From assembly GCF_964355755.1 (NCBI RefSeq), contig NC_092673.1, positions 14,885,001 through 14,949,000 on the forward strand: a stretch of 64,000 nucleotides of DNA, given 5' to 3'. This document shows positions 28,912 through 56,806 of this stretch, piece after piece (position 1 is the first letter of the stretch; the number at the start of each line of letters is the position of its first letter). Made by a program: the position numbers and the translations under genes. Source of the stretch: Antedon mediterranea. Lineage: Eukaryota > Echinodermata > Crinoidea > Comatulida > Antedonidae. The notes under the pieces were generated by a model. The model worked only from the letters and a program-made list of their open reading frames with translations, made no database searches and was not told the origin of the DNA.

Positions 28912-28933
28912 ATAATGTTGGTTAAAGTTTATT

Positions 28934-29960: not shown

Positions 29961-30033
29961 GGGGAACTAGCTCAGATGGTAGAGCGCTCGCTTTGCATGT
30001 GAGAGGTACCGGGATCAATGCCCGGGTTCTCCA
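29961..30033 (+). tRNA. tRNA-Ala(TGC), copy 17
   Basis: Fully paired. A taggcctata insertion lies just upstream. Confidence 0.93.
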
Positions 30034-30394
30034 ATAATGTCGGTTAAAGTTTATTACCGGTATCGTTACATTTTTTTGCTGAGATTTTTAACTAATGTAT
30101 ATATTTCATTGTAATAATACTGGTTACAATATGAACAGTAACACTAGACATGTAACTCGTCACTTTGACGAGTTTGGTTATCCGCCGCGCAAGTGGTGCA
30201 ACATTAACATTAAGGGGATAGGTTGAGGACAAAAGGAAGTGTTCACGTTGGCATTATGACCTGAACTGAAGAATATGATATGTTGTTATTGCTGAATTTT
30301 ATTATTTAAATTCATATATAGTATACACAGTCTAATCTGTATCCATATCACATACAGTGTAGAATAGGTGAAATTACGGGACCCGCTATTTATT

Positions 30395-31105
30395 GCAATT
30401 TTTAACATGTTGACGGTTTTAAAATGAAACGCGAAGGTAGCAATTCTGAAAGTAAATTATCTCAGCAACAACGTATTAGCGTGTAGAAGAAATTTGAATA
30501 CGTGAAATATTGATGCGCGCTCTTTTAAATGTAATGAATTATGACGCAAAAGATGAAAATACGACCTTTTTTATTTAACTGGCCATATGATGACGTCACA
30601 ACATCCGATTGGCAACATTTTAACATAATTTCGTATCTACAATCCAATAGCTTCCAGAAAAAGTTTTAATCGTGATTATCACATTTTATTCTTACGAGCT
30701 ATAACAGATTAAAATTTACTGTAAAGATGAAATTGATGCCACACGTGATTTCAATTTTTAGGCATGATGACGTCATAAAAATTAAAATATTTTTCACTCA
30801 TGCGAAAGATAGTTGATTGACCTAGACAATATCAAAATCGGGGTGAAAATGGAAAACGGATAAGTGGAGATGCGCTCTATTCAATGTGATGAGCTATGAC
30901 GAAAGATACAAAAATCCTAAATTTTATATTCGCGTGGCCATACGATGACGTCACAATGTCCGGTTAGCCATATTAATACCTGATCCGATATCTACAACTC
31001 ATCTACTTCCAGAATATGCCATCCACAAAAAGTTGACCGTTTAGTTTAGAAATTACGACTGTTTAAAAAAAGGCATATTTTAAACGAATTTTTTAACCTT
31101 TTCAT
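30395..31105. repeat. Internal ~355 bp tandem duplication within each element
   Basis: Within copy 1 the segment from about 30395 (gcaatttttaacatgttgac) is repeated, diverged, from about 30749 (tcaatttttaggcatgatga). Paired landmarks are gatgcgcgctctt / gatgcgctctatt, ggccatatgatgacgtcac / ggccatacgatgacgtcac, and cttccagaaa / cttccagaat. The element core is therefore an old dimer. The same arrangement is seen in the other copies, including the diverged copy 10. Confidence 0.7.
30591..30953. promoter_or_regulatory. Three CRE-type palindromes TGACGTCA in copy 1
   Basis: Perfect TGACGTCA occurs at 30591, 30768 and 30946. This is the consensus site of CREB/ATF factors in animals. Most copies keep two or three, so the block holds several tens of them; a few are mutated (e.g. 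tacgtcac in copy 3). Whether any are bound is unknown. Confidence 0.45.
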
Positions 31106-31665
31106 AAAAAACGCGCGCAAATTGTCCAATTCGACGTGCTCGTATGACGTATCTTTAAGTCGAAATTGTTAAAAATTTGGTAAAATTACATGAAAAGGCT
31201 GGAAAAACATAAATCACGCGAAAAAAATACGTTTTCAATGCTACGTGCGCACCGCACACGTAAAAATGTGCGCACGCGTGGGAATTTTTTACATGCTTAA
31301 AACGACATGAAACGCGTAGAAAGTTGATTATAAATTAGTTTCGCGCATTTTGAAATTTTAAATGCACGTGCGCGCGTAACTTTGTGTAAAACACGCAATT
31401 TTTTTTCAACAGAAAGTTAGCGCATGATATAAATTAAACTTTTGCAAAGTTTCAAGTTGAAATGTTATTTGGTTTTCGACATATGTTAAATACGAGAAAA
31501 TCGTTAAATCGCGCGTACGTCACGTTGCGCAATTGTAAACATCATGAAAAGCTTCGCTTGACGACGTTACATAAATGTCAAAATGTTAACATAGTTAACA
31601 AAATGTTATGTTTGCAAGTTTCAGAGAAAAGCGTTACACAAAAATCATACAGAAAGAAAGAAGAA

Positions 31666-33201
31666 CTAGACATGTAACTCGTCACTTTGACGAGTTTGGT
31701 TATCCGCCGCGCAAGTGGTGCAACATTAACATTAAGGGGATAGGTTGAGGACAAAAGGAAGTGTTCACGTTGGCATTATGACCTGAACTGAAGAATATGA
31801 TCTGTTGTTATTGCTGAATTTTATTATTTAAATTCATATATAGTATACACAGTATAATCTGTATCCATATCACATACAGTGTAGAATAGGTGAAATTACG
31901 GGACCCGCTATTTATTGCAATTTTTAACATGTTGACGGTTTTAAAATGAAACGCGAAGTTAGCAATTCCGAAAGGAAATTATCTCAGCAACAACGTATTA
32001 GCGTGTAGAAGAAATTTGAATACGTTAAATATTGATGCGCGCTCTTTTAAATGTAATGAATTATGACGCAAAAGATGAAAATACGACCTTTTTTATTTAA
32101 CTGGCCATATGATGACGTCACAACATCCGATTGGCAACATTTTTACATAATTTCGTATCTACAATCCAATAGCTTCCAGAAAAAGTTTTAATCGTGATTA
32201 TCACATTTTATTCTTACGAGCTATAACAGATTAAAATTTACTGTAAAGATGAAATTAATGCCACACGTGATTTCAATTTTTAGGCATGATGACGTCATAA
32301 AAATTAAAATATTTTTAACTCATGCGAAAGATAGTTGATAGACATAGACAATATCAAAATCGGGGTGAAAATGAAAAACGGATAAGTGGAGATGCGCTCT
32401 ATTCAATGTGATGAGCTATGACGAAAGATACAAAAATCCTAAATTTTATGTTCGCGTGGCCATACGATGACGTCACAATGTCCGGTTAGCCATATTAATA
32501 CCTGATCCGATATCTACAACTCATCTACTTCCAGAATATGTCATCCACAAAAATTTGACCGTCTAGTTTAGAAATTACGACTGTTTAAAAAAAGGCATAT
32601 TTTAAACGAATTTTTTAACCTTTTCATAAAAAACGCGCGCAAATTGTCCAATTCGACGTGCTCGTATGACGTATCTTTAAGTCGAAATTGTTTAAAATTT
32701 GGTAAAATTACTAGAAAATGCCTGAAAAACATAAATCACGCGAAAAAAATACGTTTTCAATGCTACGTGCGCACCGCACACGTAGAAATGTGCGCACACG
32801 TGGGAATTTTTGACATGCTTAAAACGACATGAAACGCGTAGAAAGTTGATTATAAATTAATTTTGCGCATTTTGAAATTTTAAATGCGCGTGCGCGCGTA
32901 ACTTTGTGTAAAACACGCAATTTTTTTTCAACAGAAAGTTAGCGCATGATATAAATTAAACTTTTGCAAAGTTTCATTTTAAAATGTTATTTGGTTTTCG
33001 ACATATGTTAAATACGAGAAAATCGTTAAATCGCGCGTACGTCACGTTGCGCGATTGTAAACATCATGAAAAGCTTCGCTTGACGACGTTACATAAATGT
33101 CAAAATGTTAACATAGTTAACAAAATGTTATGTTTGCAAGTTTTAGAGAAAAGCGTTACACAAAAATCATACAGAAAGAAAGAAGATTAAGAAAAAGATG
33201 A
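31666..33201 (-). mobile_element. Element copy 2, 3' portion
   Basis: The body ends agattaagaaaaagatga. Its 5' remainder, tgatgatttcg..., is at 34796-34851, after copy 3. Rejoined total 1592 bp. Confidence 0.75.
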
Positions 33202-34795
33202 CTAGACATGTAACTCGTCACTTTGACGAGTTTGGTTATCCGCCGCGCAAGTGGTGCAACATTAACATTAAGGGGATAGGTTGAGGACAAAAGGAAGTGT
33301 TCACGTTGGCATTATGACCTGAACTGAAGAATATGATATGTTGTTATTGCTGAATTTTATTATTTAAATTCATATATAGTATACACAGTATAATCTGTAT
33401 CCATATCACATACAGTGTAGAATAGGTGAAATTACGGGACCCGCTATTTATTGCAATTTTTTAACATGTTGACGGTTTTAAAATGAAACGCGAAGGTACC
33501 AATTCCGAAAGGAAATTATCTCAGCAACAACGTATTAGCGTGTAGAAGAAATTTGAATACGTGAAATATTGATGCGCGCTCTTTTAAATGTAATGAATTA
33601 TGACGCAAAAGATGAAAATACGACCTTTTTTATTTAACTGGCCATATGATTACGTCACAACATCCGATTGGCAACATTTTTACATAATTTCGTATCTACA
33701 GTCCAATAGCTTCCAGAAAAAGTTTTAATCGTGATTATCACATTTTATTCTTACGAGCTATAACAGATTAAAATTTACTGTAAAGATGAAATTAATGCCA
33801 CACGTGATTTAAATTTTTAAGCACGATGACGTAAAAAAAATTAAAATATTTTTAACTCATGCGAAAGATAGTTGATTGACCTAGACAATATCAAAATCGG
33901 GGTGAAAATGGAAAACGGATAAGTGGAGATGCGCTCTATTCAATGTGATGAGCTATGACGAAAGATACAAAATCCTAAATTTTATATTTGCGTGGCCATA
34001 CGATGACATCACAATGTCCGGTTAGCCATATTAATACCTGATCCAATATCTACAACTCATCTACTTCCAGAAAATGACATCCACAAAAAGTTGACCGTTT
34101 AGTTTAGAAATTACGACTGTTTTAAAAAAGGCATATTTTAAACGAATTTTTTAACGTTTTCATAAAAAACGCGCGCAAATTGTCCAATTCGACGTGCTCG
34201 TATGACGTATCTTTAAGTCAAAATTGTTTAAAATTTGGTAAAATTACTAGAAAAGGCTGGAAAATCATAAATCACGCGAAAAAAATACGTTTTCAATGCT
34301 ACGTGCGCTCCGCACACGTAAAATTGTGCGCATGCGTGGGAATTTTTGACATGCTTAAACCGACATGAAACGCGTAGAAAGTTGATTAGAAATTAATTTT
34401 GCGCATTTTGAAATTTTAAATGCGCGTGCGCGCGTAACTTTGTGTAAAACACGCAATTTTTTTCAACAGAAGGTTAGCGCATGATATAAATTAAACTTTT
34501 GCAAAGTTTCACTTTTAAATGTTATTTGGTTTTCGACATATGTTAAATACGAGAAAATCGTTAAATCGCGCGTACGTCACATTGCGCGATTGTAAACATC
34601 ATGAAAAGCTTCGCTTGACGACGTTACATAAATGTCAAAATGTTAACATAGTTAACAAAATGTTATGTTTGCAAGTTTTAGAGAAAAGCGTTACACAAAA
34701 ATCATACAGAAAGAAAGAAGATTAAGAAAAAGATGATGATGATGATTTCGTACAATCACAAGAGGTTATCCTGCAACTTCGTTGCGGATAACCAA
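33202..34795 (-). mobile_element. Element copy 3, complete, nested in copy 2
   Basis: Continuous from CTAG to the 5' terminal hairpin, 1594 bp, with no insertion. Confidence 0.8.
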
Positions 34796-34851
34796 TGATG
34801 ATTTCGTACAATCACAAGAGGTTATCCTGCAACTTCGTTGCGGATAACCAA

Positions 34852-36389
34852 CTAGACATGTAACTCGTCACTTTGACGAGTTTGGTTATCCGCCGCGCAA
34901 GTGGTGCAACATTAACATTAAGGGGATAGGTTGAGGACAAAAGGAAGTGTTCACGTTGGCATTATGATCTGAACTGAAGAATATGATATGTTGTTATTGC
35001 TGAATTTTATTATTTAAATTCATATATAGTATACACAGTATATTCTGTATCCATATCACATACAGTGACATACAGTGTAGAATAGGTGAAATTACGGGAC
35101 CTGCTATTTATTGCAATTTTTAACATGTTGACGGTTTTAAAATAAAACGCGAAGGTAGCAATTCCGAAAGGAAATTATCTCAGCAACAACGTATTAGCGT
35201 GTAGAAGAAATTTGAATACGTGAAATATTGATGCGCGCTCTTTTAAATGTAATGAATTATGACGCAAAAGATGAAAATACGACCTTTTTCATTTAACTGG
35301 CCATATGATGACGTCACAACATCCGATTGGCAACATTTTTACATAATTTCGTATCTACAATCCAATAGCTTCCAGAAAAAGTTTTAATCGTGATTATCAC
35401 ATTTTATTCTTACGAGCTATAACAGATTAAAATTTACTGTAAAGATGAAATTGATGCCACACGTGATTTAAATTTTTAGGCATGATGACGTCAAAAAAAT
35501 TAAAATATTTTTAACTCATGCGAAAGATAGTTGATTGACCTAGACAATATCAAAATCAGGGTGAAAATGGAAAACGAATAGGTGGAGATGCGCTCTATTC
35601 AATGTGATGAGTTATGACGAAAGATACAAAAATCCTAAATTTTATATTCGCGTGGCCATACGATGACGTCACAATGTCCGGTTAGCCATATTAATACCTG
35701 ATCCGATATCTACAACTCATCTACTTCCAGAATATGTCATTCACAAAAAGTTGACCGTCTAGTTTAGAAATTACGACTGTTTAAAAAAAGGCATATTTTA
35801 AACGAATTTTTTGACCTTTTCATAAAAAACGCGCGCAAATTGTCCAATTCGACGTGCTCGTATGACGTATCTTTAAGTCGAAATTGTTTAAAATTTGGTA
35901 AAATTACTAGAAAAGGCTGGAAAAACATAAATCACGCGAAAAAAATACGTTTTCAATGCTACGTGCGCACCGCACACGTAAAAATGTGCGCACGCGTGGG
36001 AATTTTTGACATGCTTAAAACGACATAAAACGCGTAGAAAGTTGATTATAAATTAATTTTGCGCATTTTGAAATTTTAAATACGCGTGCGCGCGTAACTT
36101 TGTGTAAAACACGCAATTTTTTTTCAACAGAAAGTTAGCGCATGATATAAATTAAACTTTTGCAAAGTTTCACTTTAAAATGTTATTTGGTTTTCGACAT
36201 ATGTTAGATACGAGAAAATCGTTAAATCGCGCGTACGTCACGTTGCGCAATTGTAAACATCATGAAAAGCTTCGCTTGACGACGTTACATAAATGTCAAA
36301 ATGTTAACATAGTTACCGAAATGTTATGTTTGCGAGTTTTAGAGAAAAGCGTTACACAAAAATCATACAGAAAGAAAGAAGAAGAATAA
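34852..36389 (-). mobile_element. Element copy 4, 3' portion
   Basis: The body ends agaagaagaataa. The 5' remainder, aaagttgatg..., is at 37997-38075, so the join is exact (agaataa + aaagttg). Total 1617 bp. It carries the duplicated gacatacagt marker shared with copies 8 and 15. Confidence 0.75.
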
Positions 36390-37996
36390 CTAGACATGTA
36401 ACTCGTCACTTTGACGAGTTTGGTTATCCGCCGCGCAAGTGGTGCAACATTAACATTAAGGGGATAGGTTGAGGACAAAAGGAAGTGTTCACGTTGGCAT
36501 TATGACCTGAACTGAAGAATATGATCTGTTGTTATTGCTGAATTTTATTATTTAAATTCATATATAGTATACACAGTATAATCTGTATCCATATCACATA
36601 CAGTGTAGAATAGGTGAAATTACGGGACCCGCTATTTATTGCAATTTTTAACATGTTGATGGTTTTAAAATGAAACGCGAAGTTAGCAATTCCGAAAGCA
36701 AATTATCTCAGCAACAACGTATTAGCGTGTAGAAGAAATTTGAATACGTTAAATATTGATGCGCGCTCTTTTAAATGTAATGAATTATGACGAAAAAGAT
36801 GAAAATACGACCTTTTTTATTTAACTGGCCATATGATGACGTCACAACATCCGATTGGCAACATTTTTACATAATTTCATATCTACAATCCAATAGCTTC
36901 CAGAAAAAGTTTTAATCGTGATTATCACATTTTATTCTTACGAGCTATAACAGATTAAAATTTACTGTAAAGATGAAATTGATGCCACACGTGATTTAAA
37001 TTTTTAGGCATGATGACGTCAAAAAAATTAAAAGATTTTTAACTCATGCGAAAGATAGTTGATTGACCTAGACAATATCAAAATCGGGGTGAAAATGGAA
37101 AACGGATAAGTGGAGATGCGCTCTATTCAATGTGATGAGCTATGACGAAAGATACAAAAATACTAAATTTTATATTCGCGTGGCCATACGATGACGTCAC
37201 AATGTCCGGTTAGCCATATTAATACCTGATCCGATATCTAAAACTCATCTACTTCCAGAATATGTCATCCACAAAAATTTGACCGTCTAGTTTAGAAATT
37301 ACGACTGTTTAAAAAAAGGCATATTTTAAACGAATTTTTTAACCTTTTCATAAAAAACGCGCGCAAATTGTCCAATTCGACGTGCTCGTATGACGTATCT
37401 TTAAGTCGAAATTGTTTAAAATTTGGTAAAATTACTAGAAAAGGCTGGAAAAACATAAATCACGCGAAAAAAATACGTTTTCAATGCTACGTGCGCACCG
37501 CACACGTAGAAATGTGCGCACGCGTGGGAATTTTTGACATGCTTAAAACGACATGAAACGCGTAGAAAGTTAATTATAAATTAATTTTGCGCATTTTGAA
37601 ATTTTAAATGTGCGTGCGCGCGTAACTTTGTGTAAAACACGCAATTTTTTTTCAACAGAAATTTAGCGCATGATATAAATTAAACTTTTGCAAAGTTTCA
37701 CTTTAAAATGTTATTTGGTTTTCGACATATGTTAAATACGATAAAATCGTTAAATCGCGCGTACGTCACGTTGCGCAATTGTAAACATCATGAAAAGCTT
37801 CGCTTGACGACGTTACATAAATGTCAAAATGTTGACATAGTTAACAAAATGTTATGTTTGCGAGTTTTAGAGAAAAGCGTTACACAAAAATCATACAGAA
37901 AGAAAGAAGAAGAATAAAAAGTTGATGATGATGATGATGATGATGATTTCGTACAATCACAAGAGGTTATCCTGCAACTTCGTTGCGGATAACCAA
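36390..37996 (-). mobile_element. Element copy 5, complete, nested in copy 4
   Basis: 1607 bp, continuous from CTAG to the 5' hairpin. Shares private variants with copy 9 (gttgatggttttaaaatg, gaagttagc). Confidence 0.8.
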
Positions 37997-38075
37997 AAAG
38001 TTGATGATGATGATGATGATGATGATTTCGTACAATCACAAGAGGTTATCCTGCAACTTCGTTGCGGATAACCAA

Positions 38076-39608
38076 CTAGACATGTAACTCGTCACTTTGA
38101 CGAGTTTGGTTATCCGCCGCGCAAGTGGTGCAACATTAACATTAAGGGGATAGGTTGAGGACAAAAGGAAGTGTTCACGTTGGCATTATGACCTGAACTG
38201 AAGAATATGATATGTTGTTATTGCTGAATTTTATTATTTAAATTCATATATAGTATACACAGTATAATCTGTATCCATATCACATACAGTGTAGAATAGG
38301 TGAAATTACGGGACCCGCTATTTATTGCAATTTTTAACATGTTGACGGTTTTAAAATGAAACGCGAAGGTAGCAATTCCGAAAGGAAATTATCTCAGCAA
38401 CAACGTATTAGCGTGTAGAAGAAATTTGAATACGTGAAATATTGATGCGCGCTCTTTTAAATGTAATGAATTTTGACGCAAAAGATGAAAATACGACCTT
38501 TTTTATGTAACTGGCCATATGATGACGTCACAACATCCGATTGGCAACATTTTTACATAATTTCGTATCTACAATCCAATAGCTTCCAGAAAAAGTTTTA
38601 ATCGTAATTATCACATTTTATTCTTACGAGCCATAACAGATTAAAATTTACTGTAAAGATGAAATTGATGCCACACGTGATTTAAATTTTTAGGCATGAT
38701 GACGTCAAAAAAATTAAAATATTTTTAACTCATGCGAAAGATAGTTGATTGACCTAGACAATATCAAAATCGGGGTGAAAATAGAAAACGGATAAGTGGA
38801 GATGCGCTCTATTCAATGTGATGAGCTATGACGAAAGATACAAAAATCCTAAATTTTATATTCGCGTGGCCATACGATGACGTCACAATGTCCGGTTAGC
38901 CATATTAATACCTGATCCGATATCTACAACTCATTTACTTCTAGAATATGTCATCCACAAAAATTTGACCGTCTACTTTAGAAATTACGACTGTTTAAAA
39001 AAAGGCATATTTTAAACGATTTTTTTAACCTTTTCATAAGAAACGCGCGCAAATTGTCCAATTCGACGTGCTCGTATGACGTATCTTTAAGTCGAAATTG
39101 TTTAAAATTTGGTAACATTACTAGAAAAGGCTGGAACAAAATAAATCACGCGAAAAAAATACGTTTTCAATGCTACGTGCGCACCGCACACGTAAAAATG
39201 TGCGCACGCGTGGGAATTTTTGACATGCTTAAAACGACATGAAACGCGTAGAAAGTTGATTAAAAATTAATTTTGCGCATTTTGAAATTTTAAATGCGCG
39301 TGCGCGCGTAACTTTGTATAAAACACGCAATTTTTTTTCAACAGAAAGTTAGCGCATGATATAAATTAAACTTTTGCAAAGTTTCACTTTTAAATGTTAT
39401 TTGGTTTTCGACATTTGTTAAATACGAGAAAATCGTTAAATCGCGCGTACGTCACGTTGCGCAATTGTAAACATCATGAAAAGCTTCGCTTGACGACGTT
39501 ACATAAATGTCAAAATGTTAACATAGTTAACAAAATGTTATGTTTGCAAGTTTTAGAGAAAAGCGTTACACAAAAATCATACAGAAAGAAAGAAGATTAA
39601 GAAAAAGA
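38076..39608 (-). mobile_element. Element copy 6, 3' portion
   Basis: The body ends agattaagaaaaaga. The remainder is one of the two tgatgat... modules at 46196-46310, giving about 1590 bp. Confidence 0.7.
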
Positions 39609-41133
39609 CTAGACATGTAACTCGTCACTTTGACGAGTTTGGTTATCCGCAGCGCAAGTGGTGCAACATTAACATTAAGGGGATAGGTTGAGGACAAAAG
39701 GAAGTGTTCACGTTGGCATTATGACCTGAACTGAAGAATATGATATGTTGTTATTGCTGAATTTTATTATTTAAATTCATATATAGTATACACAGTATAA
39801 TCTGTATCCATATCACATACAGTGTAGAATAGGTGAAATTACGGGACCCGCTATTTATTGCAATTTTTAACATGTTGACGGTTTTAAAATGAAACGCGAA
39901 GGTAGCAATTCCGAAAGGAAATTATCTCAGCAACAACGTATTAGCGTGTAGAAGAAATTTGAATACGTGAAATATTGATGTGCGCTCTTTTAAATGTAAT
40001 GAATTATGACGCAAAAGATGAAAATACGACCTTTTTTATTTAACTGGCCATATGATGACGTCACAACATCCGATTGGCAACATTTTAACATAATTTCGTA
40101 TCTACAATCCAATAGCTTCCAGAAAAAGTTTTAATCGTGATTATCACATTTTATTCTTACGAGCTATAACAGATTAAAATTTACTGTAAAGATGAAATTG
40201 ATGCCACACGTGATTTCAATTTTTAGGCATGATGACGTCATAAAAATTAAAATATTTTTAACTCATGCGAAAGATAGTTGATTGAACTAGACAATATCAA
40301 AATCGGGGTGAAAATGGAAAACGGATAAGTGGAGATGCGCTCTATTCAATGTGATGAGCTATGACGAAAGATACAAAAATCCTAAATTTTATATTCGCGT
40401 GGCCATACGATAACGTCACAATGTCCGGTTAGCCATATTAATACCTGATCCGATATCTACAACTCATCTACTTCCAGAATATGCCATCCACAAAAAGTTG
40501 ACCTTCTAGTTTAGAAATTACGACTGTTTAAAAAAAGGCATATTTTAAACGAATTTTTTAACCTTTTCATAAAAAACGCGCGCAAATTGTCCAATTCGAC
40601 GTGCTCGTATGACGTATCTTTAAGTCGAAATTGTTAAAAATTTGGTAAAATTACATGAAAAGGCTGGAAAAACATAAATCACGCGAAAAAAATACGTTTT
40701 CAATGCTACGTGCGCACCGCACACGTAAAAATGTGCGCACGCGTGGGAATTTTTGACATGCTTAAAACGACATGAAACACGTAGAAAGTTGATTATAAAT
40801 TAATTTCGTGCATTTTGAAATTTTAAATGCGCGTGCGCGCGTAACTTTGTGTAAAACACGCAATTTTTTTTCAACAGAAAGTTAGCGCATGATATAAATT
40901 AAACTTTTGCAAAGTTTCACTTTAAAATGTTATTTGGTTTTCGACATATGTTAAATACGAGAAAATCGTTAAATCGCGCGTACGTCACGTTGCGCAATTG
41001 TAAACATCATGAAAAGCTTCGCTTGACGACGTTACATAAATGTCAAAATGTTAACATAGTTAACAAAATGTTATGTTTGCAAGTTTCAGAGAAAAGCGTT
41101 ACACAAAAATCATACAGAAAGAAAGAAGAAAAA
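39609..41133 (-). mobile_element. Element copy 7, 3' portion
   Basis: The body ends agaagaaaaa. The best-matching remainder is the taaaaagttg... module at 46108-46195 (total about 1613 bp), although strict nesting order would place it one module later. Confidence 0.65.
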
Positions 41134-44506: not shown

Positions 44507-46107
44507 CTAGACATGTAACTCGTCACTTTGACGAGTTTGGTTATCCGCCGCGCAAGTGGTGCAACATTAACATTAAGGGGATAGGTTGAGGACAAAAGGA
44601 AGTGTTCACGTTGGCATTATGACCTGAACTGAAGAATATGATCTGTTGTTATTGCTGAAATTTATTATTTAAATTCATATATAGTATACACAGTATAATC
44701 TGTATCCATATCACATACAGTGTAGAATAGGTGAAATTACGGGACCCGCTATTTATTGCAATTTTTAACATGTTGATGGTTTTAAAATGAAACGCGAAGT
44801 TAGCAATTCCGAAAGCAAATTATCTCAGCAACAACGTATTAGCGTGTAGAAGAAATTTGAATACGTTAAATATTGATGCGCGCTCTTTTAAATGTAATGA
44901 ATTATGACGAAAAAGATGAAAATACGACCTTTTTTATTTAACTGGCCATATGATGACGTCACAACATCCGATTGGCAACATTTTTACATAATTTCGTATC
45001 TACAATCCAATAGCTTCCAGAAAAAGTTTTAATCGTGATTATCACATTTTATTCTTATGAGCTATAACAGATTAAAATTTACTGTAAAGATGAAATTGAT
45101 GCCACACGTGATTTAAATTTTTAGGCATGATGACGTCATAAAAATTAAAATATTTTTAACTCATGCGAAAGATAGTTAATTGACCTAGACAATATCAAAA
45201 TCGGGGTGAAAATGGAAAACGGATAAGTGGAGATGCGCTCTATTCAATGTGATGAGCTATGACGAAAGATACAAAAATACTAAATTTTATATTCGCGTGG
45301 CCATACGATGACGTCACAATGTCAGGTTAGCCATATTAATACCTGATCCGATATCTACAACTCATCTACTTCCAGAATATGTCATCCACAAAAATTTGAC
45401 CGTCTAGTTTAGAAATTACGACTGTTTAAAAAAAGGCATATTTTAAACGAATTTTTTAACCTTTTCATAAAAAACGCGCGCAAATTGTCCAATTCGACGT
45501 GCTCGTATGACGTATCTTTAAGTCGAAATTGTTTAAAATTTGGTAAAATTACTAGAAAAGGCTGGAAAAAAATAAATCACGCGAAAAAAATACGTTTTCA
45601 ATGCTACGTGCACACCGCACACGTAGAAATGTGCGCACGCGTGGGAATTTTTGACATGCTTAAAACGACATGAAACTCGTAGAAAGTTGATTATAAATTA
45701 ATTTTGCGCATTTTGAAATTTTAAATGTGCGTGCGTGCGTAACTTTGTGTAAAACACGCAATTTTTTTTCAACAGAAATTTAGCGCATGATATAAATTAA
45801 ACTTTTGCAAAGTTTCACTTTAAAATGTTATTTGGTTTTCGACATATGTTAAATACGATAAAATCGTTAAATCGCGCGTACGTCACGTTGCGCAATTGTA
45901 AACATCATGAAAAGCTTCGCTTGACGACGTTACATAAATGTCAAAATGTTAACATAGTTAACAAAATGTTATGTTTGCGAGTTTTAGAGAAAAGCGTTAC
46001 ACAAAAATCATACAGAAAGAAAGAAGAAGAATAAAAAGTTGATGATGATGATGATGATTTCGTACAATCACAAGAGGTTATCCTGCAACTTCGTTGCGGA
46101 TAACCAA
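44507..46107 (-). mobile_element. Element copy 9, complete
   Basis: 1601 bp, ending in its own 5' hairpin module; sister of copy 5. Confidence 0.78.
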
Positions 46108-46115
46108 TAAAAAGT

Positions 46116-46148
<33 letters not shown>

Positions 46149-46310
46149 CGTACAATCACAAGAGGTTATCCTGCAACTTCGTTGCGGATAACCAATGATG
46201 ATGATTTCGTACAATCACAAGAGGTTATCCTGCAACTTCGTTGCGGATAACCAATGATGATTTCGTACAATCACAAGAGGTTATCCTGCAACTTCGTTGC
46301 GGATAACCAA
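46108..46310 (-). repeat. Three stacked 5' terminal modules
   Basis: Modules 46108-46195, 46196-46254 and 46255-46310 each contain (atg)n, atttcgtacaatcacaag and the ggttatcc...ggataaccaa hairpin. They equal in number the three interrupted copies (6, 7, 8) and are read as their 5' ends. The first begins taaaaagttg, the others tgatgat. Confidence 0.7.
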
Positions 46311-46316
46311 TAAAAA

Positions 46317-47830
46317 CTAGAATTTAATTCGTCACTTTGACGAATTATAGGTGATCATTTTTATCATTTTAATGAAATTAATTTTTTTTTTAAACATGTA
46401 CGTACGTTAACATACGATAGGAAAATGTTGATGTATGCCATCCTATTATACGCTTATAGTGCTGAGTTATGCTTATTATATGCCATATACAATGTACAGT
46501 ATATACTGTATATCTATATACAGTGTAGCATAGGTGAAATTATGGGACACACATCAAGTTCAAATTTTTTGGTATGATGGAATTATCAAAATAAACTCGA
46601 AGATGACAATTTCGAAAGATAATGAATTGAGCAAATAAATATAAGGATTGGAAGAGAATTTGACACGTAGAAGCGCAATGCGCGCTCTTTGAAATTTGTA
46701 TAACTTCGACTAAAGAAATTTAAAAACTACTTTTTAACTTCAACTGGCCATATGATAACATCACAACATCCGATAGGCTTAATTTTGATATGAATTCATA
46801 TCTACATTTCATCAGCTTTCATAATAAATTATAATCTTCAAGGTCACCTTTAATTCTGAGGAGCTATAAGATATTCAAATGTATGGTGTAGCTGAAATTA
46901 CACGACCTAGGTTATTCAAGTTTTTACGCGTGATGACGTCATCACAATAAAAATGTTGACAACTCACGAGAAAGATAATTAATTGAGCAAGCACATACTA
47001 AAATATCTGCAAAAATCGGGCTCAAATAACGGAGATGCGCTCTATTGAATGTGATAACCCACACAAAAAAATAAAAATTACTAATTTTTTAATTCAAGTG
47101 GCCATTTCATGACGTCATACCATTTTGTACGTCTAATATGTATATATATTTATATCTACAACTTATTGGCTTCCATAATAAGTTAAAAAAATTGGGGGTC
47201 ACCTGCCATTCTGAAGAGTTATATTCATTTTTAAAAGGCCTTATTTTTTACCATTTTTAGCACTTTTGTACAATTAATGTGCGCATTTTGTCATTTTTAA
47301 CGTGCTCGTATAGCGTTATTTTAAGTCGGAATGGACTCAAAGTCGGAGAATGTACTAAGGATTGTGAGTAGAATATGATGTATACATCAAATTTTATTTT
47401 TTACCCTTTTTAAAAATCGCGTGCGCAAAAATGTGTTTTTGCGCAGTAATTTTTTGAAACACGCAAATGGCCTATTTCATGCTCTAAATTGATCAAAACT
47501 TAATTTTGAGCTTTTTAAAATTTTAATGCGCGATTTCACGCGCATGACCTTGAAACACGCAATTTTTTATTTGCTAATACTTTTACCTTTGACCTGAAGT
47601 TTACGTGTAGTGAATTTCATTAATATGTGATAATGAATTATGGAGATATGATTGACAATGTGATTTCACAAAATGGCGTATACGCGACGTCATGGATGAG
47701 TGATCACGCTGAAAAGCTTATTAGGACTAAGTTACAGTATTTGAAAGACATTGTAAAATTTTGGTAATCATTTACATTAAACTTTTTGAGATAATTGTTA
47801 CACAAATTTGTACAGAGAGAAATAAATAAC
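46317..47830 (-). mobile_element. Diverged element copy 10
   Basis: Starts CTAGAATTT with a related 3' hairpin (attcgtcactttgacgaat). It aligns along its length with the main family (gatgcgcgctcttt, ctggccatatgat, gatgacgtcat, gatgcgctctattga) but with many substitutions. It lacks the GGATAACC terminal repeat at both ends, so it belongs to an older subfamily. Confidence 0.65.
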
Positions 47831-50228
47831 TAGACATGTAACTCGTCACTTTGACGAGTTTGGTTATCCGCCGCGCAAGTGGTGCAACATTAACATTAAG
47901 GGGATAGGTAGAGGACAAAAGGAAGTGTTCACGTTGGCATTATGACCTGAACTGAAGAATATGATATGTTGTTATTGCTGAATTTTATCTATATATAAAT
48001 TCATATATAGTATACACAGTATAATCTGTATCCATATCACATACAGTGTAGAATATGTGAACTTACGGGACCCGCTATTTATTGCAATTTTTAACATGTT
48101 GACGGTTTTAAAATGAAACGGGAAGGTAGCAATTCCGAAAGGAAATTATCTCAGCAACAACGTATTAGCGTGTAGAAGAAATTTGAATACGTGAAATATT
48201 GATGCGCGCTCTCTTAAATGTAATGAATTATGACGCAAAAGATGAAAATACGACCTTTTTTATTTAACTGGCCATATGATGACGTCACAACATCCGATTG
48301 GCAACATTTTTACATAATTTCGTATCTACAATCCAATAGCTTCCAGAAAAAGTTTTAATCGTGATTATCAAATTTTATTCTTACGAGCTATAAAAGATTA
48401 AAATTTACTGTAAAGATGAAATTGATGCCACACGTGATTTAAATTTTTAGGCATGATGACGTCAAAAAAATTAAAATATTTTTAACTCATGCGAAAGATA
48501 GTTGATTGACCTAGACAATATCAAAATCGGGGTGAAAATGGAAAACGGATAAGTGGAGATGCGCTCTATTCAATGTGATGAGCTATGACGAAAGATACAA
48601 AAATCCTAAATTTTATATTCGCGTGGCCATACGATGACGTCACAAAGTCCGGTTAGCCATATTAATACCTGATCCGATATCTACAACTCATCTACTTCTA
48701 GAAAATGTCATCCAAAAAAATTTGACCGTCTAGTTTAGAAATTACGACTGTTTAAAAAAAGTCATATTTTAAAAGAATTTTTTAACCTTTTCATAAAAAA
48801 CGCGCGTTATTGCTGAATTTTATTATTTAAATTCATATATAGTATACACAGTATAATCTGTATCCATATCACATACAGTGTAGAATAGGTGAAATTACGG
48901 GACCCGCTATTTATTGCAATTTTTAACATGTTGACGGTTTTAAAATGAAACGCGAAGGTAGCAATTCCGAAAGTAAATTATCTCAGCAACAACGTATTAG
49001 CGTGTAGAAGAAATTTGAATACGTGAAATATTGATGCGCGCTCTTTTAAATGTAATGAATTATGACGCAAAAGATGAAAATACGACCTTTTTTATTTAAC
49101 TGGCCATATGATGACGTCACAACATCCGATTGGCAACATTTTAACATAATTTCGTATCTACAATCCAATAGCTTCCAGAAAAAGTTTTAATCGTGATTAT
49201 CACATTTTATTCTTACGAGCTATAACAGATTAAAATTTACTGTAAAGATGAAATTGATGCCACACGTGATTTCAATTTTTAGGCATGATGACGTCATAAA
49301 AATTAAAATATTTTTCACTCATGCGAAAGATAGTTGATTGACCTAGACAATATCAAAATCGGGGTGAAAATGGAAAACGGATAAGTGGAGATGCGCTCTA
49401 TTCAATGTGATGAGCTATGACGAAAGATACAAAAATCCTAAATTTTATATTCGCGTGGCCATACGATGACGTCACAATGTCCGGTTAGCCATATTAATAC
49501 CTGATCCGATATCTACAACTCATCTACTTCCAGAATATGCCATCCACAAAAAGTTGACCGTTTAGTTTAGAAATTACGACTGTTTAAAAAAAGGCATATT
49601 TTAAACGAATTTTTTAACCTTTTCATAAAAAACGAGCGCAAATTGTCCAATTCGACGTGCTCGTATGACGTATCTTTAAGTCGAAATTGTTAAAAATTTG
49701 GTAAAATTACATGAAAAGGCTGGAAAAACATAAATCACGCGAAAAAAATACGTTTTCAATGCTACGTGCGCACCGCACACGTAAAAATGTGCGCACGCGT
49801 GGGAATTTTTGACATGCTTAAAACGACATGAAACGCGTAGAAAGTTGATTAGAAATTAATTTTGCGCATTTTGAAATTTTAAATGCGCGTGCGCGCGTAA
49901 CTTTGTGTAAAACACGGATTTTTTTTTCAACAGAAAGTTAGCGCATGATATAAATTAAACTTTTGCAAAGTTTCAAGTTGAAATGTTATTTGGTTGTCGA
50001 GCTATGTTAAATACGACAAAATCGTTAAATCGCGCGTAAGTCACGTTGCGCAATTGTAAACGTCATGAAAAGCTTCGCTTGACGACGTTACGTAAATGTT
50101 AATATGTTAAGATAGTTACCGAAATGTTATGTTTGCGAGTTTTAGAGAAAAGCGTTACACAAAAATCATACAGAATGATTTCGTACAATCACAAGAGGTT
50201 ATCCTGCAACTTCGTTGCGGATAACCAA
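47831..50228 (-). mobile_element. Element copy 11, fusion of two partial copies
   Basis: 47831-48806 is the first ~976 bases of a copy. At 48806/48807 (aaacgcgcg | ttattgctg) it jumps to about base 150 of a second copy, which runs on to a 5' hairpin at 50228. One further 5' module follows at 50229-50287. A deletion that removed one body end and one CTAG end would explain two 5' modules with one 3' end. Confidence 0.65.
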
Positions 50229-50287
50229 TGATGATGATTTCGTACAATCACAAGAGGTTATCCTGCAACTTCGTTGCGGATAACCAA

Positions 50288-51810
50288 CTAGACATGTAAC
50301 TCGTCACTTTGACGAGTTTGGTTATCCGCCGCACAAGTGGTGAAACATTAACATTAAGGGGATAGGTTGAGGACAAAAGGAAGTGTTCACGTTGGCATTA
50401 TGACCTGAACTGAAGAATATGATATGTTGTTATTGCTGAATTTTATTATTTAAATCCATATATAGTATACACAGTATAATCTGTATCCATATCATACAGT
50501 GTAGAATAGGTGAAATTACGGGACCCGCTATTTATTGCAATTTTTAACATGTTGACGGTTTTAAAATGAAACGCGAAGGTAGTAATTCCGAAAGCAAATT
50601 ATCTCAGCAACAACGTATTAACGTGTAGAAGAAATTTGAATACGTGAAATATTGATGCGCGCTCTTTTAAATGTAATGAATTATGACGCAAAAGATGAAA
50701 ATACGACCTTTTTTATTTAACTGGCCATATGATGACGTCACAACATCCGATTGGCAACATTTTTACATAATTTCGTATCTACAATCCAATAGCTTCCAGA
50801 AAAAGTTTTAATCGTGATTATCACATTTTATTCTTACGAGCTATAACAGATTAAAATTTACTGTAAAGATGAAATTACTGCCACACGTGATATTAATTTT
50901 TAGGCATGATGACGTCAAAAAAATTAAAATATTTTTAACTCATGCGAAAGATAGTTGATTGACCTAGACAATGTCAAAATCGGGGTGAAAATGGAAAACG
51001 GATAAGTGGAGATGCGCTCTATTCAATGTGATGAGCTATGACGAAAGATACAAAAATCCTAAATTTTATATTCGCGTGGCCATACGATGACGTCAAAATG
51101 TCCGGTTAGCCATATTAATACCTGATCCGATATCTACCACTCATCTACTTCCAGAATATCCCATCCACAAAAAGTTGACCTTCTAGTTTAGAAATTACGA
51201 CTGTTTAAAAAAAGGCATATTTTAAACGAATTTTTTAACATTTTCATAAAAAACGCGCGCAAATTGTCCAATTCGACGTGCTCGTATGACGTATCTTTAA
51301 GTCGAAATTGTTTAAAATTTGGTAAAATTACTAGAAAAAGCTGGAAAAACATAAATCACGCGAAAAAAAATCGTTTTCCATGCTACGTGCGCACCGCACA
51401 CGTAAAAATGTGCGCACGCGTGGGAATTTTTGACATGCTTAAAACGACATGAAACGCGTAGAAAGTTGATTATAAATTAATTTTGCGCATTTTGAAATTT
51501 TAAATGCGCGTGCGCGCGTAACTTTGTGTAAAACACGCAATTTTTTTTCAACAGAAAGTTAGCGCATGATATAAATTAAACTTTTGCAAAGTTTCACTTT
51601 AAAATGTTATTTGGTTTTCGACATATGTTAGATACGAGAAAATCGTTAAATCGCGCGTACGTCACGTTGCGCAATTGTAAACATCATGAAAAGCTTCGCT
51701 TGACGACGTTACATAAATGTCAAAATGTTAACATAGGTAACAAAATGTTATGTTTGCAAGTTTTAGAGAAAAGCGTTACACAAAAATCATACAGAAAGAA
51801 AGAAGAAAAA
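50288..51810 (-). mobile_element. Element copy 12, 3' portion
   Basis: The body ends agaagaaaaa. The 5' remainder, taaaaagttgatgttg..., lies at 53426-53495, after copy 13. Rejoined total 1593 bp. Confidence 0.75.
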
Positions 51811-51978
51811 CTAGATCTAAACTCGTCACTTGAGGACGAGTTTGGTTATCCGCCCGCAACAAAACGTATCTTGCGTAATAAAGTACTTCTCAGTTATGAC
51901 TTTTCCAAAAAAAGTTAGCCTATTCAAAATTAAAACTGCCATTTCAGTGTAATAACCAATCCTTTTAATCAATTGTTT

Positions 51979-52052
51979 TCCCGTGATTGGATTCGAACCC
52001 GGTACCTCTGATACCAAAGTCGGTTGCACTACACATCGAGCCATATGAGCAC
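51979..52052 (-). repeat. tRNA-like segment (SINE candidate)
   Basis: On the minus strand a good B box ggttcgaatcc is preceded at tRNA-like distance by tggctcgatgtg, a degenerate A box. It lies inside copy 13 and is not present in the main family. Probably a SINE head or tRNA relic. Confidence 0.4.
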
Positions 52053-52750
52053 CTGCTGAAGAAAATCCGAAGAAAGAGTCCTCGTTCATTCGGTATGTCC
52101 TGAACCCCCCTCGATGCAAGTTGATTATTACATAATGAACTTAAATCATAATTTTTACTATGATGAAATCTTCACAAATTTTAAACAGTTACATATTATG
52201 AGAGTGCATACTTTCTAGTTTTATATATTAACATGTGAAGAAAAAAGATAAGCGTTATGTTTATTGTTTTGCTCTTTGAATATGTTTATGTTTGTTTGAT
52301 GATAATTATTTCAAAAATTACATTTAATATGCAAATAATGTAGCCATCAAACACTTTTTAACATTCAACACTATAATAAATCACACCTATGATTCATACA
52401 CTGCAAGAAAATAAAATAAAAAATGGGGGTAACCTTGCATTCTGATGAACTGTTTCATTTTTAAAAGTAGACATATTTTGCAACATTTTCACAATTTGTT
52501 GACGTATTCGTGCGCAACCTGTCATGTTTAACGTGCTCGTAGAACGCCATTTCAAGTTGAAAAGTGAATAAAATAACGTAAAATTGTTAACCGAAGATTT
52601 AAAAACACAAATAGTGTAAAAGAAATGCTCATACGCGTTCCCTGCGCCGTGCGCGCGTAAAAATGTGCGCACCAGTGGTAATTTTTTAAACGCTTAAAAT
52701 GACCTGAATCGTGCTCTAATTTAATCAGAAATTGATTTGAAGCATTTTAA

Positions 52751-53351
52751 AATTTCAAACGCCATTTACGCGCGCACTTTCTAATGTTACAAATTGCGAT
52801 AGCGTTAAAAAAGTTAACTATTGATGTGAAGCAAACGTGGCTGAAAATGACGTTAAAAAATATTCATTTGTTTCGAAGTTATAACCAATTTAAGATTTTC
52901 AGAAAATCACGCGTACCTTACGCTACGCGGCTCTGACATCGTCAAAAAGCTTGGCTGGACAACTTCAGTAAAATGTCTAAATGCTGAACAAGTTACAACA
53001 TATTATGTTTACACGTTGAAGAGAAACAGCGTGCACAAAATAAGAAGAGTAAAATATTTCAAACGCAATTTACGCGAAAACTTTCTAATCTCCAAAAATT
53101 TGTTAAACATTCCAAAAGTTAGCCATTGATGTGAAGAAAACGTGGCTGAAAATTTCGTTAAAAAATATTTATCGGTTTCGAAGTTATGACCGATTTAAGA
53201 TTTTCAGAAAATCGCGCGTAACTTACGCTACGCGGATCTGATATTGTCAAAAAGCTTGGCAGTACATCTTCAGTTAAATGTCTATATGTTGACGAAGTTA
53301 CAACATGTTATGTTAACACGTTAAAGAGAAAACGCGTGCACAAAATCCGAG
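52751..53351. repeat. ~300 bp tandem duplication in copy 13
   Basis: 52751-53052 and 53053-53351 are diverged copies: both contain tttcaaacgc, ttgatgtgaag, aacgtggctgaaaat, gatttaagattttcagaaaatc-like text and a caaaaagcttgg motif in order. Confidence 0.75.
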
Positions 53352-53495
53352 AAAGAAAGAAGAATAATAAAAAAAAAAAGTAACACTACAATAACAAAGG
53401 TTATCCGCTTGAGGCGGATAACCAATAAAAAGTTGATGTTGATGATTTCGTACAATCACAAGAGGTTATCCTGCAACTTCGTTGCGGATAACCAA

Positions 53496-55023
53496 CTAGA
53501 CATGTAACTCGTCACTTTGACGAGTTTGGTTATCCGCCGCGCAAGTGGTGCAACATTAACATTAAGGGGATAGGTTGAGGACAAAAGGAAGTGTTCACGT
53601 TGGCATTATGACCTGAACTGAAGAATATGATATGTTGTTATTGCTGAATTTTATTGTTTAAATTCATATATAGTATACACAGTATAATCTGTATCCATAT
53701 CACATACAGTGTAGAATAGGTGAAATTACGGGACCCGCTATTTATTGCAATTTTTAACATGTTGACGGTTTTAAAATGAAACGCGAAGGTAGCAATTCCG
53801 AAAGGAAATTATCTCAGCAACAACGTATTAGCGTGTAGAAGAAATTTGAATACGTGAAATATTGATGCGCGCTCTTTTAAATGTAATGAATTATGACGCA
53901 AAAGATGAAAATACGACCTTTTTTATTTAACTGGCCATATGATGACGTCACAACATCCGATTGGCAACATTTTAACATAATTTCGTATCTACAATCCAAT
54001 AGCTTCCAGAAAAAGTTTTAATCGTGATTATCACATTTTATTCTTACGAGCTATAACAGATTAAAATTTACTGTAAAGATGAAATTGATGCCACACGTGA
54101 TTTCAATTTTTAGGCATGATGACGTCATAAAAATTAAAATATTTTTAACTCATGCGAAAGATAGTTGATTGACCTAGACAATATCAAAATCGGGGTGAAA
54201 ATGGAAAACGGATAAGTGGAGATGCGCTCTATTCAATGTGATGACCTATGACGAAAGATACAAAAATCCTAAATTTTATATTCGCGTGGCCATACGATGA
54301 CGTCACAATGTCCGGTTAGCCATATTAATACCTGATCCGATATCTACAACTCATCTACTTCCAGAATATGCCATCCACAAAAAGTTGACCGTCTAGTTTA
54401 GAAATTACGACTGTTTAAAAAAAGGCATATTTTAAACGAATTTTTTAACCTTTTCATAAAAAACGCGCGCAAATTGTCCAATTCGACGTGCTCGTATGAC
54501 GTATCTTTAAGTCGAAATTGTTTAAAATTTGGTAAAATTACATGAAAAGGCTGGAAAAACATAAATCACGCGAAAAAAATACGTTTTCAATGCTACGTGC
54601 GCACCGCACACGTAAAAATGTGCGCACGCGTGGGAATTTTTGACATGCTTAAAACGACATGAAACGCGTAGAAAGTTGATTATAAATTAATTTCGCACAT
54701 TTTGAAATTTTAAATGCGCGTGCGCGCGTAACTTTGTGTAAAGCACGCAATTTTTTTTCAACAGAAAGTTAGCGCATGATATAAATTAAACTTTTGCAAA
54801 GTTTCAAGTTGAAATGTTATTTGGTTTTCGACATATGTTAAATACGAGAAAATCGTTAAATCGCGCGTACGTCACGTTGCGCAATTGTAAACATCATGAA
54901 AAGCTTCGCTTGACGACGTTACATAAATGTCAAAATGTTAACATAGTTAACAAAATGTTATGTTTGCAAGTTTCAGAGAAAAGCGTTACACAAAAATCAT
55001 ACAGAAAGAAAGAAGAAGAATAA
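53496..55023 (-). mobile_element. Element copy 14, 3' portion
   Basis: The body ends agaagaagaataa, then a 7-bp stub CTAGACA (55024-55030), then the CTAG of copy 15. The expected remainder (aaagttg) is not found; the available module at 56633-56691 begins tgatgatgat. Confidence 0.65.
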
Positions 55024-55030
55024 CTAGACA

Positions 55031-56632
55031 CTAGACATGTAACTCGTCACTTTGACGAGTTTGGTTATCCGCCGCGCAAGTGGTGCAACATTAACATTAA
55101 GGGGATAGGTTGAGGACAAAAGGAAGTGTTCACGTTGGCATTATGACCTGAACTGAAGAATATGATATGTTGTTATTGCTGAATTTTATTATTTAAATTC
55201 ATATATAGTATACACAGTATAATCTGTATCCATATCACATACAGTGACATACAGTGTAGAATAGGTGAAATTACGGGACCCGCTATTTATTGCAATTTTT
55301 AACATATTGACGGTTTTAAAATGAAACGCGAAGGTAGCAATTCCGAAAGGAAATTATCTCAGCAACAACGTATTAGTGTGTAGAAGAAATTTGAATGCGG
55401 GAAATATTGATGCGCGCTCTTTTAAACGTAATGAATTATGACGCAAAAGATGAAAATACGACCTTTTTTATTTAACTGACCATATGATGACGTCACAACA
55501 TCCGATTGGCAAAATTTTTACATAATTTCGTATCTACAATCCAATACCTTCCAGAAAAAGTTTTAATCGTGATTATCACATTTTATTCTTACGAGCTATA
55601 ACAGATTAAAATTTACTGTAAAGATGAAATTGATGCCACACGTGATTTAAATTTTTAGGCATGATGACGTAAAAAAAATTAAAATATTTTTAACTCATGC
55701 GAAAGATAGTTGATTGACCTAGACAATATCAAAATCGGGGTGAAAATGGAAAACGAATAAGTGGAGATGCGCTCTATTCAATGTGATGAGCTATGACGAA
55801 AGATACAAAAATCCTAAATTTTATATTCGCGTGGCCATACGATGACGTCACAATGTCCGGTTAGCCATATTAATACCTGATCCGATATCTACAACTCATC
55901 TACTTCCAGAATATGTCATCCACAAAAAGTTGACCGTCTAGTTTAGAAATTACGACTGTTTAAAAAAAGGCATATTTTAAACGAATTTTTTAACCTTTTC
56001 ATAAAAAACGCGCGCAAATTGTCCAATTCGACGTTCTCGTATGACGTATCTTTAAGTCGAAATTGTTCAAAATTTGGTAAAATTACTAGAAAATGCTGGA
56101 AAAACATAAATCACGCGATAAAAATACGTTTTCAATGCTACGTGCGCACCGCACACGTAAAAATGTGCGCACGCGTGGGAATTTTTGACATGCTTAAAAC
56201 GACATGAAACGCGTAGAAAGTTGATTATAAATTAATTTTGCGCATTTTGAAATTTTAAATGCGCGTGCGCGCGTAACTTTGTGTAAAACACGATATTTTT
56301 TTTCAACAGAAAGTTAGCGCATGATATAAATTAAACTTTTGCAAAGTTTCACTTTAAAATGTTATTTGGTTTTCGACATATGTTAAATACGAGGAAATCG
56401 TTAAATTGCGCGTACGTCACGTTGCGCAATTGTAAACATCATGAAAAGCTTCGCTTGACGACGTTACATAAATGTCAAAATGTTAACATAGTTAACAAAA
56501 TGTTATGTTTGCAAGTTTTAGAGAAAAGCGTTACACAAAAATCATACAGAAAGAAAGAAGATTAAGAAAAAGATGATGATGATTTCGTACAATCACAAGA
56601 GGTTATCCTGCAACTTCGTTGCGGATAACCAA
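55031..56632 (-). mobile_element. Element copy 15, complete
   Basis: 1602 bp with its own 5' hairpin; the near-identical sister of copy 8. Confidence 0.78.
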
Positions 56633-56773
56633 TGATGATGATTTCGTACAATCACAAGAGGTTATCCTGCAACTTCGTTGCGGATAACCAAGAATAAAAA
56701 GTTGATGATGATGATGATGATGATTTCGTACAATCACAAGAGGTTATCCTGCAACTTCGTTGCGGATAACCAA
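56633..56773 (-). repeat. Two terminal 5' modules closing the block
   Basis: 56633-56691 is an extra 5' module. 56692-56773 begins gaataaaaagttg and exactly continues the broken end of copy 1. Host tRNA spacer resumes at 56774. Confidence 0.75.
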
Positions 56774-56806
56774 AAATAGCTACTGGATTTGTGTAATTGT
56801 ATAGAT

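Follow-up and report, generated by a model that had tools for sequence, protein, structure and literature searches.

Evidence for serial same-orientation insertion beside resident 5' hairpins in a nested HINE-type family of Antedon mediterranea

How does a block of mobile elements arise in which copies lie within copies and all of them point the same way? This question is raised by a 64,000-nucleotide stretch of the genome of the crinoid Antedon mediterranea (14885001-14949000 of contig C4, referred to here as the window), in which a tandem array of alanine transfer RNA (tRNA-Ala) sequences is interrupted at 30144-56773 by a nested block of elements of about 1.6 kb. We found that these elements inserted serially, in the same orientation, at points adjoining the 5' hairpin of a resident copy. 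We consider it probable, at about 0.85, that a HINE-type family (HINEs are non-autonomous Helentrons) built the block as a nest, by repeated insertions of this kind. The evidence comes from the window, from eight regions on contig C1 (184 kb, in five clusters) and from ten isolated copies, within a searched genome of 354 Mb in 18 contigs, and all nest orders were read from the genome assembly. Five CTAG matches with unrelated hairpins were discarded before the bracket parse, and the regions read gave 104 bracket pairs.

A bracketed block and its counterparts in the genome

The first-pass annotation, made from the letters of the window alone, had described a bracket-like block with fifteen 3' ends and fifteen 5' modules, and our recount of 30144-56773 agrees. 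The 3' ends comprise 13 from the main family and two from related families (46317 and 51811), while the 5' modules comprise 14 that are identical over 43 bp and one variant that ends at 53425. A single orientation is kept throughout the block, with no main-family copy on the other strand. The direction in which the block is to be read has been corrected: the elements run 5' to 3' on the minus strand, so that the CTAG 3' end of each lies on its left in the window. Nesting depth returns to 1 after 34851, 38075, 46310, 50287 and 53495 and to 0 at 56773, as had been described, and a last-in-first-out (stack) parse of the block empties exactly, at 15/15. The motif GGATAACCAA occurs 29 times against 5.0 expected, and this excess, together with the count of modules in the genome against its reversed control (given below), excludes chance.

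We asked to which class of element the block belongs. From its 5' terminus, TTGGTTATCCGC, which folds into a hairpin, each element continues into a short conserved module and then into a tract that is rich in T and contains (TCA)n; the body, of about 1.5 kb, comes next, and a second hairpin and CTAG close the 3' end. This arrangement fits a non-autonomous Helitron2/Helentron of the HINE type, about 1.6 kb long. The definition of Helitron2 and HINE, in the published extracts available to us, places one inverted repeat at a distance of 0-2 bp from the 5' terminus and its partner 20-30 bp from the 3' end; here, TTGGTTATCCGC stands at the 5' terminus and GCGGATAACCAA lies 30 nt from the 3' end. 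Hairpins occur at both ends, as in HINEs. The 5' terminal hairpin with its 12-bp inverted repeat (for example, at 34764-34795) folds as DNA with -11.5 kcal/mol (z -7.4), and the 3' end with its repeat, hairpin and CTAG (for example, at 33202-33243) folds with -8.8 kcal/mol (z -4.5). A microsatellite next to the 5' repeat is a further HINE feature, and (TCA)n is found there in most uninterrupted copies and has been lost in some. The target is likewise that of a HINE: a T follows the 3' end in 104/104 copies, and the empty host site, seen at one site, is without duplication. From the features of Helitron1, the 3' CTRR end is present as CTAG. Two others fail: the 5' end is TT instead of TC, and the base before the 5' end is A in 51, T in 26, G in 26 and C in 1 of the 104 copies, which does not agree with a strict A-T target. 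The anatomy as a whole agrees with the Helitron2/HINE definition.

A search for further nested blocks, which the first-pass annotation had proposed, found clusters elsewhere in the genome, with five others on C1 that follow the same grammar. The 32-base 5' module has 555 exact copies in the genome and the 40-base 3' end has 546, against 0 for the reversed control in each case; the two numbers need not pair copy for copy, because related families have the 3' end without the module, or the reverse. If the first 100 modules on C1 are taken, a second module is present within 150 bp of 61 of them and within 10 kb of 90. The listed stretch of C1 contains 99 modules and 100 3' ends, which fall into 20 strand-specific clusters. 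The four largest of these hold 12/12, 22/22 (90 kb), 28/26 (122 kb) and 13/13 modules and 3' ends, and the running depth in the element direction never drops below 0 in any of the four (chance values 0.07, 0.04, 0.11 and 0.07). Ten of the 16 smaller clusters are balanced, and the other six are off by one or two ends. Two of the regions read, B2 and B3, are listed separately and are parts of one 90-kb nest, with 30 kb between them unread; B4, B5 and B6, also listed separately, form one cluster (28/26) with unread gaps. The 3' ends that lack 5' partners in B2, and the reverse in B3, were considered as unmatched ends, a possibility that we rejected when the single 90-kb nest was found to balance at 22/22.

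Rejoined halves and the order of insertion

A comparison of rejoined junctions with uninterrupted copies had been named in advance as a test of nesting, and most junctions match. Across the window, the C1 regions and the isolated loci, 35/52 rejoined junctions are present exactly, over 20 bp (10+10), in an uninterrupted copy, whereas 500 shuffles of the right halves gave 7.1 matches on average and never more than 15. The window pairs in this test, as in those of body identity, relative age and the 1326 comparisons of nested pairs described below, come from a first parse and include mis-paired ones; when the window is left out, 33/43 junctions are exact. A phylogeny of the 5' modules, which had also been proposed, is unbuildable because the modules are identical, and the tract halves were used in place of them. 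The length of the resident minus its nested copies amounts to 1572-1617 bp in 38/42 cases, and to 1097, 1814, 3461 and 4509 bp in the others. Copies of 1650-1725 bp were considered as mobile composites with two 5' ends, a reading that was dropped because, once A-type modules are included, nearly all of them are ordinary nests whose residents have the normal length.

Within the window, 2/9 junctions of the first parse equal an uninterrupted copy over 20 bp. The 3' end of a third family was absent from that parse and is present in the final one, which is followed here, all features lying on the minus strand. The outermost resident, copy 1, sits inside the tRNA-Ala array. Its body and 3' end are at 30144-31665; its 5' module and the beginning of its landing tract stand 25 kb away from that body, at 56692-56773. 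The host flanks of the block rejoin, at this one site, to a tRNA-array unit without a gap or a target-site duplication, and the rejoined flank resembles 12 uninterrupted units of the array in the window with 1-3 mismatches of 50. The array itself occupies 26193-30141 and 56773-61770 in units of about 216 bp; its anticodons are mixed (AGC, TGC and CGC), and several of its tRNA copies score low.

Inside copy 1, three residents form simple pairs. Copy 2 (body and 3' end at 31666-33201, 5' module at 34796-34851) holds copy 3, which is uninterrupted and 1594 bp long (33202-34795). Copy 4 (34852-36389, with its module at 37997-38075) holds copy 5, likewise uninterrupted, of 1607 bp (36390-37996). 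Copy 12 (50288-51810, with its module at 53426-53495) holds copy 13 (51811-53425), a member of the other related family that brings its own hairpin module. The first-pass annotation had reported that the halves of copies 1, 2, 4 and 12 rejoin exactly. This stands for 2, 4 and 12, each of which rejoins, by reading of the final parse, to a tract present in an uninterrupted copy, and holds for copy 1 on the condition that a stray 6 bp is excluded.

The remaining brackets are less regular. Copy 6 has its body and 3' end at 38076-39608 and its bracket-order partner module at 46255-46310, and the junction between them differs from known tracts in the number of TCA units only. Next come copy 7 (39609-41133, partner module at 46196-46254), copy 8 (41134-44506, partner module at 46108-46195) and, innermost at depth 5, the uninterrupted copy 9 of 1601 bp (44507-46107). 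The tract types of copies 7 and 8 do not match those of their partners, being swapped between the two brackets. Copy 8 is also split, at about 41308-43134, by a foreign insertion whose inverted ends resemble those of a DNA transposon. Copy 10 (46317-47829) belongs to a related family and is paired with a main-family module (50229-50287) by bracket order only; between the two lies copy 11 (47830-50228), 2399 bp long, which we read as a fusion of two copies by an internal deletion. Finally, copy 14 (53496-55030, partner module at 56633-56691) holds the uninterrupted copy 15 of 1602 bp (55031-56632) and includes an extra 7 bp adjoining the 3' end of that copy. These 7 bp, at 55024-55030, are a second TGTCTAG on the element strand, as if the 3' end had been over-copied by seven bases or joined twice.

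That copies 7, 8 and 14 depart from strict last-in-first-out pairing had been pointed out before; in our parse 7 and 8 have mismatched tracts and 14 has the extra 7 bp, and the stack empties. A deletion that ran from one copy into another at copy 11 would account for the mispairing of copies 7 and 10 and for the stray 6 bp, while a composite element, or recombination between bodies, could be the cause of the swap between copies 7 and 8. Rejoined residents had been said to cluster at the length of uninterrupted copies, and eight do so: copies 1, 2, 4, 6, 7, 10, 12 and 14 measure 1572-1617 bp as coordinate sums, next to 1594-1607 bp for the uninterrupted main-family copies 3, 5, 9 and 15 and 1615 bp for copy 13. 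The outliers are copy 8, at 3461 bp with its foreign insertion, and the fused copy 11, at 2399 bp.

Landing sites and competing explanations

The points at which copies enter residents are confined to a short interval. We found that 51/52 insertion points inside residents lie 51-88 bp from the 5' end of the resident, an interval that corresponds to the (TCA)n and T-rich tract (for example, at 34707-34744); the one point off the tract, at +270, is in a resident that carries extra sequence. In addition, 26/104 copies sit exactly before the first 5' T of a resident. Split main-family modules were searched for in the regions read and none was found, which indicates that the hairpin module itself is avoided. 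Folding of the 5' end as single-stranded DNA yields a hairpin that covers nucleotides 3-32 and a weak stem that covers 38-53; beyond them (from about +53) the DNA is predicted to be unpaired. The landing sites, at position 0 and from +51, stand at the predicted unpaired sides of the folds. Of the ten isolated copies, four (S29, S31, S34 and S37) are situated in the 5' end of a related element or at most 4 bp away from it. In a fifth, S36, the tract is itself occupied by a related element, which another one abuts. The window also contains a (GAT)n array of 56 units (5978-6146), which is tract-like, holds no element of the nested family, and forms a single natural control.

One could suppose that any T-rich or microsatellite site serves as a target, that the tract of the family is merely a good one, and that no 5' end is recognised. 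We judge this explanation to be unlikely. It draws on the preference of HINEs for T-rich sites, as given in the accessible part of published descriptions, on the T-richness of the tract (a mean of 7.3 of 12 bases), and on six insertions that have no related neighbour in 25 flanking bases on each side and stand before a T in T-rich or A+T-rich DNA. The six (S30, S32, S33, S35, S38 and copy 1 of the window) were picked by eye out of 26 copies with no paired resident, and related-looking 3' ends are found near S30 and S33. If all N-T sites of an element were used equally, 1.9% of insertions would fall in the tract. Restricting the count to T-rich sites (at least 7 of 12) gives 16.2 in the tract and 129.1 in the body of each copy, or about 11% (30 copies), and yet a single body insertion was found. 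Equal use of T-rich sites throughout the genome would place about 0.02% of insertions in the main-family tract, as extrapolated from the density in the window flanks, yet 90 of the 100 C1 modules are clustered. Nor is insertion exactly at the 5' T of a resident obviously an effect of T-runs.

Alternatively, nested pairs could have moved as composite elements bounded by the 5' end of the outer copy and the 3' end of the inner one, with stacks of 5' modules travelling as units. Composites of this kind have been proposed for Helitrons of Fusarium (PMC5148889), and a related scheme for maize (PMC3288121), in the parts of those papers at hand; they could account for the swapped tracts of copies 7 and 8 and for seven stacked modules beside a Helentron on contig C8, which is described below. 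The ends of the main family balance, however, at 555 and 546 and cluster by cluster too, so that such units should be few. Moreover, 0/1326 comparisons between nested pairs have both bodies at least 99% alike, which argues that the nested pairs are separate events. We therefore hold composites to be quite improbable as the origin of the nests.

The relationships among copies bear on whether a few nested units were multiplied by local duplication or gene conversion, or whether the block is an artefact of assembly. Usable bodies were obtained for 94 of the 104 pairs and lacking for 10. Bodies from one region are on average 0.918 identical (430 pairs) and bodies from different regions 0.920 (3941 pairs); when regions are merged into nests, the averages are 0.913 and 0.921. 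These equal means suggest that a nest draws most of its copies from the whole family. Assembly is difficult for 1.6-kb repeats that are about 97% identical, and the closest body pairs share a nest to an extent (see below) that led us to raise our estimate for local duplication or artefact slightly. Even so, we regard it as very improbable: five other C1 clusters have the same grammar, mean identity is alike within and between nests, the nested pairs do not duplicate one another, and the empty site is exact in register.

Least credible of all is the insertion of a rolling-circle concatemer or multimeric circle, in which read-through of the 3' end would lay down copies head to tail in one event: direct CTAG-TTGG or CTAG-TTAG junctions do occur, the next base is the first T of a resident in those 26/104 copies, and Helitron circles have a perfect junction of the same kind (PMC4778049, as far as its available text goes), but a concatemer should not leave stacks of 5' modules that lack bodies, and it is largely refuted by the abutting neighbours, of which 0/13 testable are identical (0.852-0.991, median 0.977). 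Abutting copies are thus unlike and no nested pair is duplicated, which indicates that neither a concatemer nor block duplication is the main origin of the nests. The preference of the first-pass annotation for serial self-targeted insertion over a concatemer is supported by the junctions, the identities, the unlike neighbours and the balance of ends.

Several observations weigh against growth by serial insertion beside resident hairpins. The C1 regions were picked because they bear clusters. Four of the nine window residents (7, 8, 10 and 14) have no junction match to uninterrupted tracts, and 17/52 joins overall are not exact. The one insertion into a body, in a nested pair on C1 (B3+ 20475, C1:3166478-3169681), has the opposite orientation. 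Inner copies are not measurably younger than the residents that hold them: among 52 pairs, 23 inner copies are younger and 28 older by terminal branch, and 19 have fewer and 26 more private substitutions; without the window (44 pairs), the counts are 20 vs 23 and 17 vs 22. This age test is low in power, as the copies are nearly alike with a median of 2 private changes, and gene conversion could blur it; we do not enter it in support of serial growth. Among the closest copies, 6/8 body pairs at 99.8% identity or more are in the same nest against 1.3 expected, a number reached by 3/1000 label shuffles, and 16/53 pairs at 99% or more are in the same nest against 9.1 expected (24/1000 shuffles). 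This excess of same-nest pairs suggests that some copies were locally made or homogenised; an earlier conclusion from the equal means, that there was no local copying at all, was softened after the excess was seen. There are three identical body pairs, two of which are inside one nest, while the third joins the window and C1. Lastly, the ends of the C8 Helentron considered below are related to those of the family and its 5' region is HINE-like, but the loop of its hairpin is different and its 5' module is not identical to that of the family.

A candidate agent and a possible self-target

What might move these non-autonomous copies? Autonomous Helentron-type genes for Rep, helicase and endonuclease are present in the same genome, and the Helentron layout, as summarised in the literature available in part, consists of Rep, a helicase and an apurinic/apyrimidinic (AP)-like endonuclease. 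The Helitron Rep family PF14214 has 87 matches in the genome, 50 of which are Helentron-type and fall in one score band (about 119-136 bits); 39 of the 50 have open frames of at least 2800 codons. For 26/50 of the Helentron-type matches another lies within 50 kb, against 0.7 expected, and 19/19 such pairs are on the same strand, which indicates that the large elements cluster like the small ones.

The Helentron on contig C8 is bounded on one side by a CTAG 3' end near 860557 and on the other, near 878.7-879.0 kb, by seven stacked hairpin modules, its own included. About 18 kb separate these ends, with 2.7 kb inside unread, and by inspection the element is flanked by a HINE-like body and by the stack of 5' modules. 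Its pieces include OTU, a herpes-tegument-like protease domain, DUF6570, a Pif1-like helicase and a C-terminal Exo_endo_phos; the last is above the cut-off, and Pif1 was recognised by sequence, with its Pfam 2B domain below the cut-off. The frame at C8:866001-870800 carries an OTU protease together with the herpes-tegument-like protease PF04843, both above the cut-off. Upstream of the Helentron frame and inside the element, a tandem repeat of about 340 bp is visible by eye at C8:862300-864100. The coding strand is opposite to the 5' to 3' direction of the element's own ends, an arrangement also reported for some Helitron2 elements (PMC3627910, in the portion available). A Helentron protein is the likely agent and would move the nested family in trans.

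The window also holds two long open frames of long interspersed nuclear elements (LINEs), each with endonuclease and reverse transcriptase, at 10271-13276 (minus strand) and 16618-19287 (plus strand). The first has 99% identity to an Antedon mediterranea protein over 49% of its length.

To explain why copies land where they do, we tentatively propose, at somewhat less than an even chance, that the 5' end of the family doubles as a self-target: a protein-bound hairpin would mark the unpaired DNA that flanks it, and integration would amount to circle closure between copies. The Helentron Rep/helicase/endonuclease may read the 5' hairpin of a resident like a donor end, and the unpaired DNA that flanks the resident hairpin would then be a preferred target. 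Incoming copies would be brought to the hairpin and joined at the unpaired T-rich DNA beside it. The joining of CTAG to the first T of a resident would correspond to the junction of circle closure, but made between two copies, and the incoming 3' inverted repeat, which is complementary to the 5' repeat of the resident, could dock the 3' end just upstream of that T. Docking of this kind fits the 26 exact boundary insertions, but ordinary N-T insertion, for which a case has been made in maize (PMC2267711), fits them too.

How do these nests compare with known systems? The published descriptions, each consulted in part, contain likenesses to each piece of the picture. Non-autonomous Helentrons such as DINE-1 and the oyster Cg_HINE resemble the family described here in their inverted repeat, which is found at the 5' end and again internal to the 3' end, in their 5' and 3' hairpins, in a microsatellite by the 5' repeat, in a T-rich target and in the lack of target-site duplication. 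They differ in that the 3' end here is CTAG, and massive self-nesting in the 5' tract is undescribed for HINEs in those accounts. For FoHeli of Fusarium, duplicated 5' pieces shorter than 200 bp were put down to self-insertion in a published proposal, which is a likeness to our nests; the multiple 5' termini there are ascribed to mobile composites, whereas here hundreds of 5' and 3' ends are in balance and the majority of junctions rejoin (PMC5148889). The same paper mentions three Helitrons in tandem in Metarhizium and leaves the choice between insertion and rolling circle undecided (PMC5148889). In maize, nesting of Helitrons gives rise to several termini (PMC3288121), and head-to-tail elements have a G/T junction where they abut (PMC2267711), as in the nests described here; a second element that inserted canonically at the 5' T of the first could produce that abutting junction (PMC2267711). 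The maize elements are, by contrast, canonical Helitron1 with multiple 3' pseudo-termini and no fixed landing tract in the text seen (PMC3288121, PMC2267711). Helraiser circles share the perfect junction of 3' end to 5' end, and differ in that the abutting neighbours in our nests are unlike each other (PMC4778049). Within the partly available sources, our literature search recognised no report of nests this large with a fixed landing tract. Self-insertion of Helitrons has already been published, and it is the scale and the precision seen here that look new.

In the literature, as far as it was available, both the choice of target by Helitrons and the origin of their tandem arrays, by concatemer or by serial insertion, are unsettled. 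In this one genome dozens of separate events are open to reading in their order, their junctions and the kinship of their copies, and the outcome favours serial insertion beside the 5' hairpin of a resident. It leads to a specific and testable model of self-targeting, and also illustrates how a mobile element may accumulate at a small number of places. If the self-target reading is true, Helentrons would build growing nests of a single orientation, and may thereby spare the rest of the host genome.

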